Part shown: positions 35,676 through 41,871 of the stretch, piece after piece
Layout: every line of letters begins with the position of its first letter
Numbering within the stretch: the first letter of the stretch is position 1
NCBI GenBank assembly: GCA_018065415.1
Contig: JAGHTI010000019.1
Coordinates: 1-43,686 of the forward strand
DNA length: 43,686 nt
Direction: 5' to 3'
Source: Candidatus Equicola stercoris
GTDB lineage: Bacteria; Bacteroidota; Bacteroidia; Bacteroidales; Bacteroidaceae
Notes under the pieces: generated by a model
What the model saw: only the letters and a program-made list of their open reading frames with translations
The model's database searches: none
Told to the model about the DNA's origin: nothing
Program-made: the position numbers and the translations under genes

Positions 35676-35735
35676 CTTTAGCCACCTTCATTCATATTTT
35701 TTCATGGCTAAAGATTCTGAATGACTAATCATTCA
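35676..35735. terminator. Hairpins between convergent folK and queA
   Basis: CTTTAGCCA (35676-35684)/TGGCTAAAG (35705-35713) and TGAATGA-CTAA-TCATTCA (35718-35735); first has a long 20-nt loop. Confidence 0.45.
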
Positions 35736-36846
35736 ATATGAGTATTGCATCGCCATAGCATCCGAACTTGTAACCGTTCTCTAATGCCAGTTTGTATGCT
35801 TCTACCATCAAGTCATATCCTCCAAATGCACACTCTACCATAAGTAATGTTGACAGTGGATGATAGAAGTTGCCTACCATGCAGTCTGCCACTTGACAGT
35901 TATAAGGTGGGAAGATAAATTTGTTTGTCCAACCTTCATACTCTTTCAGTTTGCCATCTGTTCCCACTGCCGTCTCCAAAGTACGTACAACACTTGTACC
36001 TACTGCAACAACATGATGTCCTTCTTCTTTTGCATTGTTCACCAAGTGGCATGCCTCGTCATTGACTTCCATCTGTTCGCTGTCCATCTTGTATTTTGAC
36101 AGGTCTTCCACATCAATATCGTTAAAGTTTGCAAATGATGTGTGAAGGGTGACGAAAGCTTTGTTGATGTCTTTTATCTCCATGCGTTTCAGCAGTTCGC
36201 GTGAGAAGTGCAACCCTGATGCAGGAGCGGTGACAGCACCTTCTTTCTTTGCAAATAGACACTGGAAATTCGTCAGGTCATCGGCTGTCGTCTTTCTTCT
36301 GGAGATGATATATTCAGGTAGCGGAGCCTCACCGAGCTTGAACAGTTCTTCCTTAAATTCCTCATGACTGCATTCATAAAGGAATCTCAATGTACGTCCG
36401 CGTGATGTCGTATTGTCTATAACTTCCGCAACCATGCTACCGCTTTCATCGAAGAATAATTTGTTACCAATACGAATCTTTCGTGCAGGTTCCACGATGA
36501 CATCCCAAAGACGCATCTCCTTGTTCAGTTCTCTGAGCAGATATACTTCAATATTTGCATCCGTCTTCTCTTTAGTACCGAAAAGACGTGCAGGCAATAC
36601 TTTTGTGTCATTGAAAACGAAAGTATCTCCTTCATCAAAATAGTTGATGATGTCACGGAACTCAATGAAAACCTTTTTTCTACCTTTCCCATTGAGTGGT
36701 TTTCCGTTTTCATCTTTTTTGAACATCTCAATTTCTCCGGACTTCTTGTGAATAACCATCATCTTACATTCATCTCGATGTAATGGTGGATTAAGTGCTA
36801 TATCCTTATCCGTGAGAGTGAAGAAATTAAATTCTGATAGTTTCAT
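35725..36846 (-). CDS. queA: S-adenosylmethionine:tRNA ribosyltransferase-isomerase
   Basis: DTKVLPARLFG; EGAVTAPASGLHFSRELL; HTSFANFNDI (divergent but QueA-like). Confidence 0.92.
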   Translation of the reverse strand: MKLSEFNFFTLTDKDIALNPPLHRDECKMMVIHKKSGEIEMFKKDENGKPLNGKGRKKVFIEFRDIINYFDEGDTFVFNDTKVLPARLFGTKEKTDANIEVYLLRELNKEMRLWDVIVEPARKIRIGNKLFFDESGSMVAEVIDNTTSRGRTLRFLYECSHEEFKEELFKLGEAPLPEYIISRRKTTADDLTNFQCLFAKKEGAVTAPASGLHFSRELLKRMEIKDINKAFVTLHTSFANFNDIDVEDLSKYKMDSEQMEVNDEACHLVNNAKEEGHHVVAVGTSVVRTLETAVGTDGKLKEYEGWTNKFIFPPYNCQVADCMVGNFYHPLSTLLMVECAFGGYDLMVEAYKLALENGYKFGCYGDAILILND

Positions 36847-36877
36847 TGTGTTTATCTGTTTTACAGTTTATCTATTA

Positions 36878-36912
36878 TCAATTATTAATTATTAATTATT
36901 AATTTTTAATTA
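36878..36912. repeat. AT-rich ATTATTA repeat (ATTAATTATTAATT)
   Basis: Repeated 7-mer ATTATTA; similar tract at 38765-38785. Confidence 0.8.
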
Positions 36913-36917
36913 CCATA

Positions 36918-36966
36918 AGCTCTCAGCTCTCAGCTCTCAACTCTCAGCTCTCAACTCTCAGCTCAG
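36918..36966. repeat. 7-bp tandem repeat AGCTCTC/AACTCTC, about 7 copies
   Basis: Units at 36918, 36925, 36932, 36939, 36946, 36953, 36960; runs into the truB 3' end. Confidence 0.9.
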
Positions 36967-37651
36967 CCCTCTCCAGCCATTCGTTGAACTCATCCAGTGT
37001 GAGACAGTCATCAAGCGTTATGTCCCCTATTCTTGTGCGACAGAGAGCAGTTAGATATGCTCCCGACCTTAACGCCTCACCAATGTCACGTGCTAATGCC
37101 CTTATATACGTACCCTTGCTGCATACTACGCGTATCGACAACTGCATGTTTTCTGGGTTAAAGTCCGTAAGTTCTATTTCATCAATGACCAGTGTCTTTG
37201 GTTCCAGTTTCACTTCCTTCCCCTTGCGTGCCAACTTGTAAGCAGGTTTGCCATCAACCTTACAGGCAGAAAATTCTGGCGGTCGCTGTTGTATGGTACC
37301 AACAAAAGAGGTCAGAGTTTCTTCTATCAGCTCTCTTGTGATATGCTCCACAGGATATGTCTTGTCAACAGGATGCTCCATGTCGTAACTAGGTGTCGTC
37401 GCACCAAGTTGCATGGTAGCCGTATATTCCTTTGTCTTATACTGAAATTCCTCAATCCTCTTTGTTGCCTTCCCTGTGCATAGAATGAGAACCCCTGTCG
37501 CAAGGGGGTCCAGAGTCCCTGCATGCCCTGTCTTGAGACGTTTCACTCCCAGCTTGCGTGACAACCTAGTACGCACGAAAGCCAGAGCACCGAAACTCGA
37601 CAGTTTGTAAGGTTTATTCAAATATATTACCTCGCCCTCAAAGAAGTTCAT
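36944..37651 (-). CDS. truB: tRNA pseudouridine(55) synthase
   Basis: [34 protein letters not shown]. Confidence 0.95.
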
Positions 37652-38489
37652 AACCAAGGAGTGCCATACCTACTATAGCACAGTAGATAGCAAAATATAT
37701 TAGTTTCCCCTTTTTAACTATACTTATCATCCATTTACAGGCAACGCATCCTGCAATGAAAGCAGCGATAAAACCGATGATTAGAGCAGAAATGGAGATT
37801 TCTCCAAAAACAGCACCCACACCTTGCTCCAGCATCTTCGTCGTATCTAGAAATGCCTCACCGAGAATAGGTGGGATGACCATGAGGAACGAGAACTGTG
37901 CCAACTTTTCCTTATTGTTCCCCAGTATCAGTCCTGTTGCAATGGTGCTGCCCGACCTGCTGAGACCTGGCATCACTGCAATAGCCTGTGCAATACCGAT
38001 GATGAAAGCATCCTTCAGAGAGAGCTCTTTCTTCTGTCGCGGACGTGCATAGTATGAGAATGCAAGCAGGAGTGCCGTACACAGCAACATGATGGCAACG
38101 ATGACAAGACCACTGCCAAAGATTTCCTCTACATAGTCTTTGAAACACAGCCCAACGATGCCAACAGGAATCATTGACACCAGAATGTTGAGAGTATATT
38201 TATGTTCCTCACTCAATCGTGATACTATAGTCTTTCCCTTAACCTTGTCGCGGTTGGAGTCATCGAATTTCGTTAATCCCGTTATGAGCCATGACACTTC
38301 TTTCCATAGGATGACTATTGTACTCAAGACAGTTGCTACATGGACTGCAATTGTGAAAGCAAGATTCGATTCACCGTCTTCCATGCCAAACAGATTGGAG
38401 AATATAGTCAGATGACCGCTGCTACTTACAGGCAAGTATTCCGTCAGACCTTGGATAAGACCTAATATCAATGCTTCTATATCGCTCAT
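37638..38489 (-). CDS. uppP: undecaprenyl-diphosphatase
   Basis: [30 protein letters not shown]. Confidence 0.96.
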
Positions 38490-38501
38490 TGTCTTTTAAT
38501 T

Positions 38502-38726
38502 TTATTTCTTTTGCTTCCAGAGGATAGCAACAATTATTGACAGAAAACCTACAAATGTGATTATAGGAGCCACCTTTATCCTCATCGGAGAAAAGATGTC
38601 AGGATTGTAAGCCTCTTCAGTCGAACCCGCTCCCGCCATCAGGATAAGTCCAATGATAACTATTACCATGCTGATGGCAAGCATGATGAAATTAATTTTA
38701 CCGAAAGCCAGTTTCTCTTTTCCCAT
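38502..38726 (-). CDS. DUF3098 small membrane protein
   Basis: Two-TM small protein FGKINFIMLAISMVIVIIGLILM...; conserved position next to ftsX/uppP. Confidence 0.75.
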   Translation of the reverse strand: MGKEKLAFGKINFIMLAISMVIVIIGLILMAGAGSTEEAYNPDIFSPMRIKVAPIITFVGFLSIIVAILWKQKK

Positions 38727-38764
38727 TTTATTTTGCTATTTTAATCGTTAATGCTCTTAACCTC

Positions 38765-38785
38765 TAATTATTAATTATTAATTAT
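38765..38785. repeat. TAATTATTAATTATTAATTAT repeat downstream of ftsX
   Basis: Same tract as at 36878-36912. Confidence 0.75.
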
Positions 38786-38807
38786 AATGCATCAATGCAT
38801 TGAAGCA

Positions 38808-39683
38808 TTAGTATCTATACAAGTCTGCAGCCGTCATCTTCAAGAATCTGTTCACAGAGATGAATGTGCATACAGTTGAAATCAGCAATCCTAGAACAAA
38901 CACAGAGATATAAGTGATAAGCACTATATCTTGTGTTATTATGCTCACTGCATATTGCTCATAATTATAGAGTAGCACAATACATATTCCAATGAACACA
39001 CAAGCCAGAGAAGCAGAGATGATGCCCACAAACATCATCTTCTTGAGGAACGGTTTGCGTATGAAACCGTAAGTAGCCCCCACCAGTTTCATTGTGTGCA
39101 TCTTGAAACGCTGCGAATAAACACTCAAGCGTATAGTATTGTTTATCAACGTAAACGATACGATAAGCAGGAATACTGCCAGGATGACAAGAACAAGACT
39201 TATTTTCTGGATGTTATTATTTATCTTATCCAGTAAGTCATGCTGATAGATTACGTCCGTTATGGATTTTGACTGTTTCCACTCTTTTTCTATCCATTTC
39301 ACCGAGTCTTTATTTGCATATTCTGCTTTCAGAGTCAGCTCTATTGATGACATGAACGGATTCTCATCCAGAAATTCAGACGGGTCTATGCCCATAGCCT
39401 TTGTCTCCTCCTTCAGCACCTTGTCCTTGCCGATAAAATCAGCACTATGAGTATAAGGACGGCGGAGCATATCCTGTGTCAGTTTCTTCCCTTGTTGCAA
39501 TGTCAGAGAATCGTCAAGGATGAGACTTGCCGTAAGGTTTTCCTTTACGGATTTTGAAATGTTGTTTGCGGCAAATAGGAAAAGGACAATCATACCCAAG
39601 ATTATAAGTACAAGTGTCGTACTGAGGCAAAGGGTAGCAATGTGCATGTCTCCCTTCTTTTTCGTAAAAATTCTATTGCTCAT
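38808..39683 (-). CDS. ftsX: Permease-like cell division protein FtsX
   Basis: Four TM segments, large periplasmic loop after TM1, LTASLILDDSLT, FKMHTMKLVGATYGFIRKPFL. Confidence 0.9.
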   Translation of the reverse strand: MSNRIFTKKKGDMHIATLCLSTTLVLIILGMIVLFLFAANNISKSVKENLTASLILDDSLTLQQGKKLTQDMLRRPYTHSADFIGKDKVLKEETKAMGIDPSEFLDENPFMSSIELTLKAEYANKDSVKWIEKEWKQSKSITDVIYQHDLLDKINNNIQKISLVLVILAVFLLIVSFTLINNTIRLSVYSQRFKMHTMKLVGATYGFIRKPFLKKMMFVGIISASLACVFIGICIVLLYNYEQYAVSIITQDIVLITYISVFVLGLLISTVCTFISVNRFLKMTAADLYRY

Positions 39684-39943: not shown

Positions 39944-39973
39944 TTTGTATTTAGGAAATAATTATTATTTTTG
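39944..39973 (+). promoter_or_regulatory. Strong Bacteroidetes-type promoter before a non-coding region
   Basis: TTTG (39944-39947)-N18-TATTTTTG (39966-39973). Confidence 0.7.
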
Positions 39974-39978
39974 CAACG

Positions 39979-40262
39979 CTTAATGGCCCTGTTGGGTCAG
40001 GGGCAAAGAACTTTAAGGGTAAAAAACAACATGGCTCTCGTGTAGGGCGCAGTTGGTGAAAAGACGTTTTCAACGTTGTCTTCTACGTACAAATCTGGAA
40101 AATTTGACACTCTGGAAGATGATGCGCGATGCGTTTACGTTGGTGATTATTGGCTTCATGCTATATAATCCGAAGCGTGGGCTGTTGAGTGCTAATTCTA
40201 GAGTGTGGTATTCCAGAACCTGTACGTGGGATTAGCGAGATGATAATCACCCACGCTCTTTT
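39979..40262 (+). ncRNA. Candidate structured RNA or long 5' leader with alternative helices, upstream of an HTH gene
   Basis: CTTAA/TTAAG plus GCCCTG/CAGGGGC 5' hairpin; GCTAAT/ATTAGC; AGCGTGGG (40174) and CGTGGG (40225) both complementary to CCCACG(CT) at 40250; followed by CTCTTTTC; no convincing ORF. Confidence 0.5.
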
Positions 40263-40325
40263 CATAGGATACATATTGTTGTTCGACTTTCATGGGTGAG
40301 AGGTCAAAAGAAAATCTTATGTCGT

Positions 40326-40523
40326 ATGCACATAGGCGAAGAGATATTTAAGGTGATGAAAGAACAGGGTCGCACTACGGTGTGGCTATCACGGGAGTTA
40401 GGTTGTGCCAGGACGGTAGTGTATCGCATCTATGAACGTCCGAGCATTGATACCGCACTCCTACTGCGAATCTCAAAACTCCTCAACTACAATTTCTTCA
40501 CCTATTACAACGACTTCTTTTAG
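40326..40523 (+). CDS. Small helix-turn-helix DNA-binding protein
   Basis: MHIGEEIFKVMKEQGRTTVWLSRELGCARTVVYRIYERPSIDTALLLRISKLLNYNFF, XRE-like HTH; internal Met start. Confidence 0.7.
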   Translation: MHIGEEIFKVMKEQGRTTVWLSRELGCARTVVYRIYERPSIDTALLLRISKLLNYNFFTYYNDFF

Positions 40524-40531
40524 TCGTAACT

Positions 40532-41728
40532 TTAGTATATAAGCCCTGCCATCCAGAGCGGAAGTTTCTTGCCGACAGGAAACTCCATGGAGTCAGCAAA
40601 TATGAAGGAATCCGGTATGTCGGCAATCTGATCAAATGACTTGTCGTGTCCACCAACCTCAAATGTCCAGCGACCGTCAACGAAGAAATCCCCCTGAGTT
40701 TTCCCATACTCTACAATATGGTGAGTGGAAAGCTGGTTGACAACAAAACATTCACGGAGAGTACCTATATTTTCACTTGAAGCGAGAGCACACAGCATAT
40801 TCGGATTGTGGATGTATATTTTGTCAGGTTTCTGCATCTTGGAAACCGACTTGTTGTCGGAATAGAGCAGATGCAGGAGTTCTGCCCTCTGAAGACTGGA
40901 AAGATAGCTGAGGACAGTAATCTTATTGAGTTCAAGATACGACGACAGTTTTGCTATGTTAACCTCATAAGGGATGTTATCCGCAAGGTATAGGAGCATA
41001 GCCTTCAGTTTGCGCGTATATGCCGCATCGATATTGCAGAATTGCACCATTTCCTGTTCAATAATGAAGGAAATGATGTTTTCAATGCGTGTGTAGTACT
41101 GTACGTCGTTACCATCGAAAAATGGATAATAGCCTACCCGTAGATATTCCTCAAACATTTTCTGCGGATGACAAAGTCTGTTTACCTCTTCGCAGATAGC
41201 ATCAGCATTGGTAAGCACATCCTGAAGAGAATGTATTGGCAGTTTTATCTTGTGATAGAAGAGCATGTACTCACGAAAAGAGAGCCCATGCATAGAATAA
41301 GGCAATACACGGCGGGAAAGGTCAGCATCGGCATTGAGAATCTGGATAAGCGAAGAACCCGTAAACGTAATCTTGAGGTCGGGATATAAGTCGTTGAGTT
41401 CCTTTATTTCCTTGCTCCAGTCAGAGTACTTGTGCACCTCGTCAAGGAACAGATGCTTACCGCCCATCTGATGAAACCGTTCGCCGAGAGCCAGTAGAGT
41501 GTGATTGGTAAAATACATACTGTCCATAACGCAGTAAAGAGCCTCGCCGGCATTGTTTCCATAATGCATACTGATATACTGACGCATAAGGGTAGTCTTT
41601 CCCACACCCCGCGACCCACGAATGGCAACAAGTGGTTTTTCCCAGTCAATCTGATAAAGACTCTCACGGACTATCTCCGTACTCACCTGCGAGATTAGTA
41701 TGTGGTGTTTGCGATATAATGACTCCAT
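40532..41728 (-). CDS. AAA family ATP-binding protein (AAA_14-like)
   Basis: Walker A AIRGSRGVGKTTLM, Walker B KHLFLDEVHKYSDW, sensor-1-like ITFTGSSL; start moved inside the promoter. Confidence 0.85.
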   Translation of the reverse strand: MESLYRKHHILISQVSTEIVRESLYQIDWEKPLVAIRGSRGVGKTTLMRQYISMHYGNNAGEALYCVMDSMYFTNHTLLALGERFHQMGGKHLFLDEVHKYSDWSKEIKELNDLYPDLKITFTGSSLIQILNADADLSRRVLPYSMHGLSFREYMLFYHKIKLPIHSLQDVLTNADAICEEVNRLCHPQKMFEEYLRVGYYPFFDGNDVQYYTRIENIISFIIEQEMVQFCNIDAAYTRKLKAMLLYLADNIPYEVNIAKLSSYLELNKITVLSYLSSLQRAELLHLLYSDNKSVSKMQKPDKIYIHNPNMLCALASSENIGTLRECFVVNQLSTHHIVEYGKTQGDFFVDGRWTFEVGGHDKSFDQIADIPDSFIFADSMEFPVGKKLPLWMAGLIY

Positions 41729-41753
41729 TTTCTGTTTTGTTATTTTCCGAGTG

Positions 41754-41761
41754 CAAAGATA
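41754..41761 (-). promoter_or_regulatory. -7 element TATCTTTG for the AAA ATPase
   Basis: caaagata on +, 25 nt before ATG. Confidence 0.6.
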
Positions 41762-41871
41762 CAAAAGGTTATTGCAGTAACCAAATTTTCAAAAGAAAAG
41801 GTTATTGTTTTAAACGAAATTATGTCTTCCGCAGAAAAAACCAACTCTAGCCAGATACACAACTGTACCTC

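Follow-up and report, generated by a model that had tools for sequence, protein, structure and literature searches.

The window analysed here is a 43,686-nt stretch of Candidatus Equicola stercoris DNA (assembly GCA_018065415.1, contig JAGHTI010000019.1). It carries on its forward strand (+), to which all features below belong unless stated otherwise, a Bacteroidetes-type promoter at 39944-39973, in which a -33 element TTTG (39944-39947) is separated by 18 nt from the -7 box TATTTTTG (39966-39973). The promoter is followed by the main structured RNA (39974-40264), composed of a 5′ hairpin and the domains A, B and C, then by a second hairpin, P6 (40285-40305), and finally by the gene of a 65-aa Cro/C1-like helix-turn-helix (HTH) protein (40326-40523), for whose relatives weak HTH matches were obtained. 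Upstream, a divergent block (35725-39683, minus strand) encodes QueA-like, TruB, BacA-like (undecaprenyl diphosphatase) and FtsX-like proteins, and an AAA_14/DUF4143 ATPase gene (40532-41764, minus strand) is convergent with the HTH gene. The folding energy of the region was -106 kcal/mol (z -5.8), and none of 200 shuffled sequences folded as well. No Pfam match was found for the ORF at 40053-40232, and a protein reading of 40053-40235 was ruled out on this ground. An earlier note on this DNA had proposed a non-coding, multi-helix RNA with no convincing ORF at 39944-40325, and both the fold and the relatives described below bear this out; the extent of the full unit had been drawn slightly short, as the conserved element also includes the hairpin at 40285-40305.

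A DNA search first detected paralogs on contigs C79, C29 and later C12 of the window's own genome, along with a distant match from a different Bacteroidales family. About 30 relatives were aligned to obtain the covariance model R1, which covers the 3′ domain. R1 matched 217 of the 298 genomes of the window's genus (118/170 among those of high quality) and 66 of 294 genomes across Bacteroidales, representing 44 of 180 genera; in a sample of 248 genomes of the phylum, a single genome outside Bacteroidales gave a match, which was weak (G867:C1:1434109-1434199, E 8.6e-5). Seven multi-copy genomes examined closely held 7-16 copies each. The carriers named by a pattern scan were Bacteroides bouchesdurhonensis, Phocaeicola massiliensis, Xylanibacter rarus, Prevotella and Muribaculaceae, and judged by these the genus carrying the window is Prevotella-like. 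The carrier of one further locus (L140) is labelled as a Clostridia bacterium MAG, which is probably a binning error. When the window was compared with Rfam 15, nothing reached the gathering threshold and the permissive E-value mode gave nothing credible, so it belongs to no already described family at that level, a point that the earlier note had left to be checked. The same two kinds of scan with 20 relatives and the P. massiliensis copy also gave no credible match, the best chance scores being far below gathering, and no known aptamer was matched by the window or its relatives. No described family resembling this leader RNA was found in the open-access papers searched, and two genome surveys of structured RNAs make no mention of Bacteroid*; the leader family is apparently undescribed so far. 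We regard it as almost certain that 39974-40305 is one copy of a conserved structured RNA family of about 330 nt.

The architecture of this RNA was determined by covariation. A scan without any assumed structure was carried out on an alignment of 108 sequences, every pair of columns being scored by a background-corrected G-test. The top-ranked pairs were long-range and formed three helices, w, x and y, which link the loop of the 5′ hairpin (domain A) to the loop of the 3′ hairpin (domain C); the same pairs were found again in a second alignment, which extends into the flanks. The structure was then counted on alignment A4 (70 sequences), giving a 77-pair pseudoknotted fold with 92.4% of cells paired and double changes at 49 pairs. 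Its covariation score was 0.314, compared with 0.160 +/- 0.004 in shuffled alignments (0/500 as high) and at most 0.081 in slid controls. The local stems P2, A, C and P4 as well as the apical hairpins were supported in the same way, as were two tertiary contacts, one between AGTTA in the 5′ hairpin and TAACT downstream of P4, the other between TAC and GTA, and the internal-loop nucleotides of the conserved core were invariant in A4. The comparative alignment that had been suggested as a check on the RNA thus supports it.

In the window, the local 5′ hairpin P0 (39979-40004) corresponds to the GCCCTG/CAGGGGC pairing noted earlier, and its segment CTTAATGGCCC (39979-39989) is able to pair over a long range with GGGCTGTTGAG (40179-40189); the equivalent of the latter pairing in the family, AGTTA/TAACT, covaries (helix 3; 5.22-c153 in the flank-covering alignment). 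A candidate closing helix, P1 (40057-40264), is proposed from the complementarity of TGAAA (40057-40061) and TTTCA (40260-40264), and the corresponding AAAG/CUUU is near-invariant in the family. Domain A is closed by helix P2 (40062-40136; AGACGT at 40062-40067 with GCGTTT at 40131-40136), which is helix 6 of the alignment, with 95.9% paired and double changes at 2 pairs. Within it stands stem A (40079-40119; TCTTC at 40079-40083 with GAAGA at 40115-40119; helix 8), whose loop bears the arms w, x and y. The partner arms y′, x′ and w′ are borne by the loop of stem C (40191-40236; GCTAATTC at 40191-40198 with GGATTAGC at 40229-40236; helix 15, 100% paired), a conserved stem that includes the GCTAAT/ATTAGC pairing seen before. 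Together these arms make a lock. Helix w (40085-40227) joins ACGTAC (40085-40090) to GTACGT (40222-40227) and showed double changes at all six of its pairs (helix 9, among the top of the unbiased scan); helix x (40094-40217), the apical kissing loops, joins TCTGGAA (40094-40100) to TTCCAGA (40211-40217; helix 11, 100% paired, double changes at 4/6); and helix y (40108-40205), which gave the top pair of the unbiased scan, joins CACTCT (40108-40113) to AGAGTG (40200-40205; helix 12, double changes at 7/7). The terminal helix P4 (40174-40257) is formed by AGCGTGGG (40174-40181) and CCCACGCT (40250-40257), a pairing recognised in the earlier reading and now found to be conserved (helix 14, 99.3% paired), and is followed by CTTTTC.

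Because nested folding cannot hold a pseudoknot, the energy minimum of the single sequence shows just the rod made by w, x and y, and for the same reason several helices had at first been taken to compete with one another. The idea of mutually exclusive pairings was partly correct in that an alternative pairing exists, namely of P4 with 40293-40299; the competitors that had been named mostly belong to one pseudoknotted fold or are due to chance. Thus, of the two TCTGGAA copies proposed to compete for TTCCAGA (40211), the first (40094) is indeed its partner as arm x, and the second (40111) is made up of arm y and stem A. Likewise, CGTGGG (40225), which had been put forward as a rival strand for P4, marks the place where the variable arm w′ meets stem C. 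Both CGTGGG and the second TCTGGAA were rejected as competitors, as they were not conserved in A4.

A comparison of the copies within the window's genome revealed that the lock differs from the rest of the leader. The leaders on C79, C29 and C12 showed 90-93% identity in the part outside the lock and 94-96% in the spacer to the start codon, as against just 38-65% in the w and y arms, where changes were compensated on the opposite strand. When the A-loop/C-loop duplex was evaluated independently of any alignment, its energy was -26.4 kcal/mol within a copy and -12.2 kcal/mol between copies of the same genome, the values between genomes and for shuffled loops being -13.7 and -11.5 kcal/mol, respectively. 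In all four copies of the window genome, the strongest loop duplex was formed with the copy's own partner and not with that of a paralog, so each lock is private to its copy. At matched background identity, no clear difference was seen between same-genome and other-genome cross-pairing, and selection for orthogonality is therefore merely hinted at by the two cross-pairing energies given above, which moreover come from non-independent pairs; the hypervariability of the lock could be neutral compensatory drift. The leaders of Bacteroidales might be naturally occurring RNA switches that are orthogonal to one another, a single architecture having been duplicated ahead of many genes and the lock of each copy having diverged under selection for self-only folding; this is a tentative proposal that we hold to be less probable than its opposite. 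If true, the locks would act as an inbuilt code of insulation, comparable to those designed into synthetic riboregulators; the private loop-loop lock in itself is a natural example of paralogous RNAs avoiding cross-pairing.

The position of the RNA relative to genes was then considered. A TAnnTTTG -7 box was kept at the matching upstream place in 195 of 206 relatives (shuffled sequences: mean 15, maximum 24), in line with the near-consensus promoter that had been claimed at TTTG (39944)-N18-TATTTTTG. A same-strand ORF starts within 300 nt after the RNA in 199 of the 203 distinct loci with enough sequence, at a median gap of 75 nt (IQR 63-88). With the -7 box on one side and a nearby same-strand ORF on the other, the unit is therefore a promoter plus a 5′ leader, and very probably the RNA acts in cis on the gene that follows it. 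These genes are diverse: 148 downstream proteins gave matches to 74 Pfam families, the most frequent being BspA-type leucine-rich repeats (11), and other matches included C10 peptidases, dockerins, DUF2971, sigma factors and a restriction enzyme. Cys-Xaa-Xaa-Xaa radical-SAM substrates accounted for 6 of the 148, candidate defence proteins were present (PADLOC PDC-S31 matched 5/148), and by a crude test 78 of 179 downstream proteins (~44%) were export-like. Some targets were seen repeatedly. Short SRRxFFKKA-type peptides (radical SAM substrates, TIGR04117) follow the RNA, for example, at L014, L026, L037, L061, L136 and L173 (A3), and a small membrane protein (MGALFNILAHSIGSLF...) does so at L016, L018, L022, L055 and L056, being succeeded at the first three of these loci by a GLGGTGG protein that is tubulin-like by eye.

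Relatives of the window's HTH protein were found behind four further copies of the RNA (L142 (57%), L088, L215 and L229). This small Cro/C1-like family scores below Pfam cut-offs and recurs directly behind the RNA in different genomes; it may therefore be a preferred or self-regulating target of the leader. The earlier expectation that the leader regulates the downstream HTH gene is supported as far as a cis-acting leader is concerned; the leader is not specific to the HTH gene, given at least 74 Pfam families among the 148 downstream proteins. The lack of an obvious common function is unusual for a switch that answers to a single signal, and it counts against the explanation that we favour.

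A selfish or neutral mobile cassette was also considered, a promoter and leader spread by recombination and serving no regulatory purpose. In its favour, three copies within one genome share ~90% identity over the stretch between the -7 box and the ATG, ahead of genes that are not all related. However, the terminal inverted repeats of a transposon or MITE were not found around the unit, the repeats detected being internal or unrelated; no member of the family was found in IMG/VR with the pattern used, or in plasmid and phage records; and its fold is under strong purifying selection. This explanation appears very improbable to us.

Further evidence came from the second hairpin, P6. In the window its GAC(...)GTC stem (40285-40305) carries the loop TGGGTGA (40293-40299), which is complementary to TCACCCA (40247-40253) at P4. 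A hairpin around a conserved loop GGG was present between the RNA and the gene in 120 of 177 loci, compared with 7 in shuffled sequences, and ended at a median of 19 nt upstream of the start codon; about one third of the relatives had no clear 3-bp P6 hairpin by the criterion used. The bases that follow the GGG of P6 covaried with those that precede CCC in the 3′ strand of P4. The contiguous extension between the P6 loop and the P4 flank was 2.64 in cis and 1.52 +/- 0.08 with permuted partners, and matched flank classes were apparent (ACTCCC-GGGAGT, GCACCC-GGGTG, TCTCCC-GGGAGA and AATCCC-GGGAT, the window having TCACCC-GGGTGA). The alternative pairing itself, of the P4 strand with the P6 loop, is thus seen in the compared sequences, and the covariation indicates a putative conformational switch. 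As the pairing of the P6 loop uses the CCC of P4, both pairings compete at least partly; their overlap is CCC(A) alone, and an arrangement compatible with both is therefore possible, so that they are not necessarily exclusive. A GGG segment just after P2 was also considered as a competitor and rejected, its covariation being at chance (cis 0.63, permuted 0.49, maximum 0.67; on the outer side, cis 1.19 and permuted 1.20). The window has in addition a 13-nt inverted repeat of its own (40138-40150/40243-40255, 12/13 complementary) that would compete with P4, and the family segment matching this repeat showed no covariation.

The P6 hairpin bears on two further explanations. According to the first, the RNA would be a free, trans-acting molecule, either an sRNA or an ornate RNA, with its 3′ end at the U-tract, and the gene would be expressed by read-through or from another promoter. 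The compactness and strong structure of the RNA, its separate promoter and its U-rich 3′ end fit this description, and multicopy sRNA families are known in Bacteroides (FopS, PMC11697453), but the RNA is tied to the mRNA by the nearly constant spacing to the start codon, by a spacer conserved between paralogs and by the covariation of the P6 hairpin with P4; we consider a free RNA rather improbable. The second is processive antitermination, in which the leader would modify RNA polymerase to pass downstream terminators, as put and EAR RNAs do. A large leader with strongly conserved sequence elements before unrelated genes would suit an element of this kind. Many of the target genes appear short, however, and the P6-P4 covariation favours a local switch, which makes antitermination an improbable explanation in our view.

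The earlier note had seen in competing partners before a U-rich stretch the layout of an attenuator or a riboswitch. A cis leader with alternative pairing is upheld by placement, promoter and covariation; an attenuator is so far only a possible reading, as no terminator was called. The U-rich tract after P4 recurs in the family (its first four positions being T in 89%, 91%, 96% and 74% of loci) and keeps transcription termination or attenuation possible. However, neither a canonical nor a compact intrinsic terminator was called in the window, P4 encloses ~70 nt, and many relatives have merely UCUUUCC after the helix. These features also weigh on a conventional metabolite-binding riboswitch, in which the core would be an aptamer and its ligand would control an intrinsic terminator made of P4 and the U-rich tract. 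Such a riboswitch is suggested by the large conserved core with its invariant internal-loop nucleotides, by the conserved structured domain lying in the 5′ leader, and by a U-rich tract behind an 8-bp G+C-rich helix; it is opposed not only by the terminator data but also by the lack of a match to a known aptamer and by targets that share no pathway, the largest of their Pfam families having 11 members. We judge it unlikely.

We therefore return to the reading that we think probable, in which 39944-40325 is a promoter-plus-leader cassette with a cis-acting structured regulatory RNA that would switch between P4 and P6. In our view, sequence comparison establishes how the RNA folds and where it sits, together with its promoter motif, the alternative pairing and the private nature of the lock. 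RNA polymerase would start just 5′ of the 5′ hairpin and produce an mRNA leader of ~350 nt ahead of the gene. Domain A would be the first to fold; when domain C emerges, its loop would zip to the loop of domain A through w, x and y, and the two strands of P4 would thereby be brought together. The inner GGG/CCC end of P4 may then be exchangeable: its CCC with the 5′ flank could pair instead with the loop of the P6 hairpin, which ends ~19 nt before the start codon, and its GGG with the 3′ flank could pair instead with the 5′ hairpin. A shift between the P4-closed and P6-captured forms would make the start region more or less accessible, or affect early elongation, and would in this way set the expression of the following gene. 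We infer that the alternative pairings represent exclusive states, that they affect gene output, and that they act more probably on translation initiation; to the more specific claim, that expression changes when the end of P4 is exchanged with P6, with translation initiation as the likelier step, we give slightly less than even chances on the grounds of covariation and position. The family occurs in the majority of the genomes of a genus that is dominant in the gut and rumen, before genes for adhesins, secreted proteases, peptide precursors, restriction enzymes, sigma factors and small HTH regulators; if it is regulatory, a large gap exists in what is known of Bacteroidales gene control.

Finally, the family was compared with known systems. 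6S RNA is usually encoded by a stand-alone gene that is present once or a few times. The Bacteroidales 6S-like families are also free structured RNAs, whereas the present family is multicopy and gene-linked; the 6S-like free RNA that had been offered as an alternative is not supported, as no 6S covariance model was matched and each of the 7-16 copies per genome lies 5′ of a gene. With riboswitches and attenuators, of which the cobalamin riboswitch is an example with a kissing loop, the family shares the 5′ leader position, a conserved pseudoknotted core and probable alternative pairing near the expression region; it differs in having no Rfam match or common pathway and in lock helices that are unlike in every copy. 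The ornate large RNAs OLE, ROOL and GOLLD (PMC12286853) are likewise large, intricate and widely conserved, with a biochemical role that is not known, but the present RNA is ~330 nt long, has no Rfam match, and occurs in many copies per genome, each in the leader of a different gene. FopS of B. thetaiotaomicron comprises paralogous, trans-acting sRNAs with a single-stranded seed and a terminator hairpin; it resembles the present family as a multicopy Bacteroidales RNA family with a canonical sigma-ABfr promoter (PMC11697453), and its described architecture sets it apart from the present cis-acting leader with its several domains. HMP2_1881 (Fremin and Bhatt 2021) is a 108-nt candidate structured RNA, mostly from Bacteroidetes, that lies near radical SAM genes and is expressed in stool (PMC8040213). 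The present family also precedes radical-SAM peptide substrates, and HMP2_1881, compared by description only, could be at most a fragment of it. The best reading is thus a new class within a known kind, the cis-regulatory leader RNAs, with the private lock as its unusual feature.
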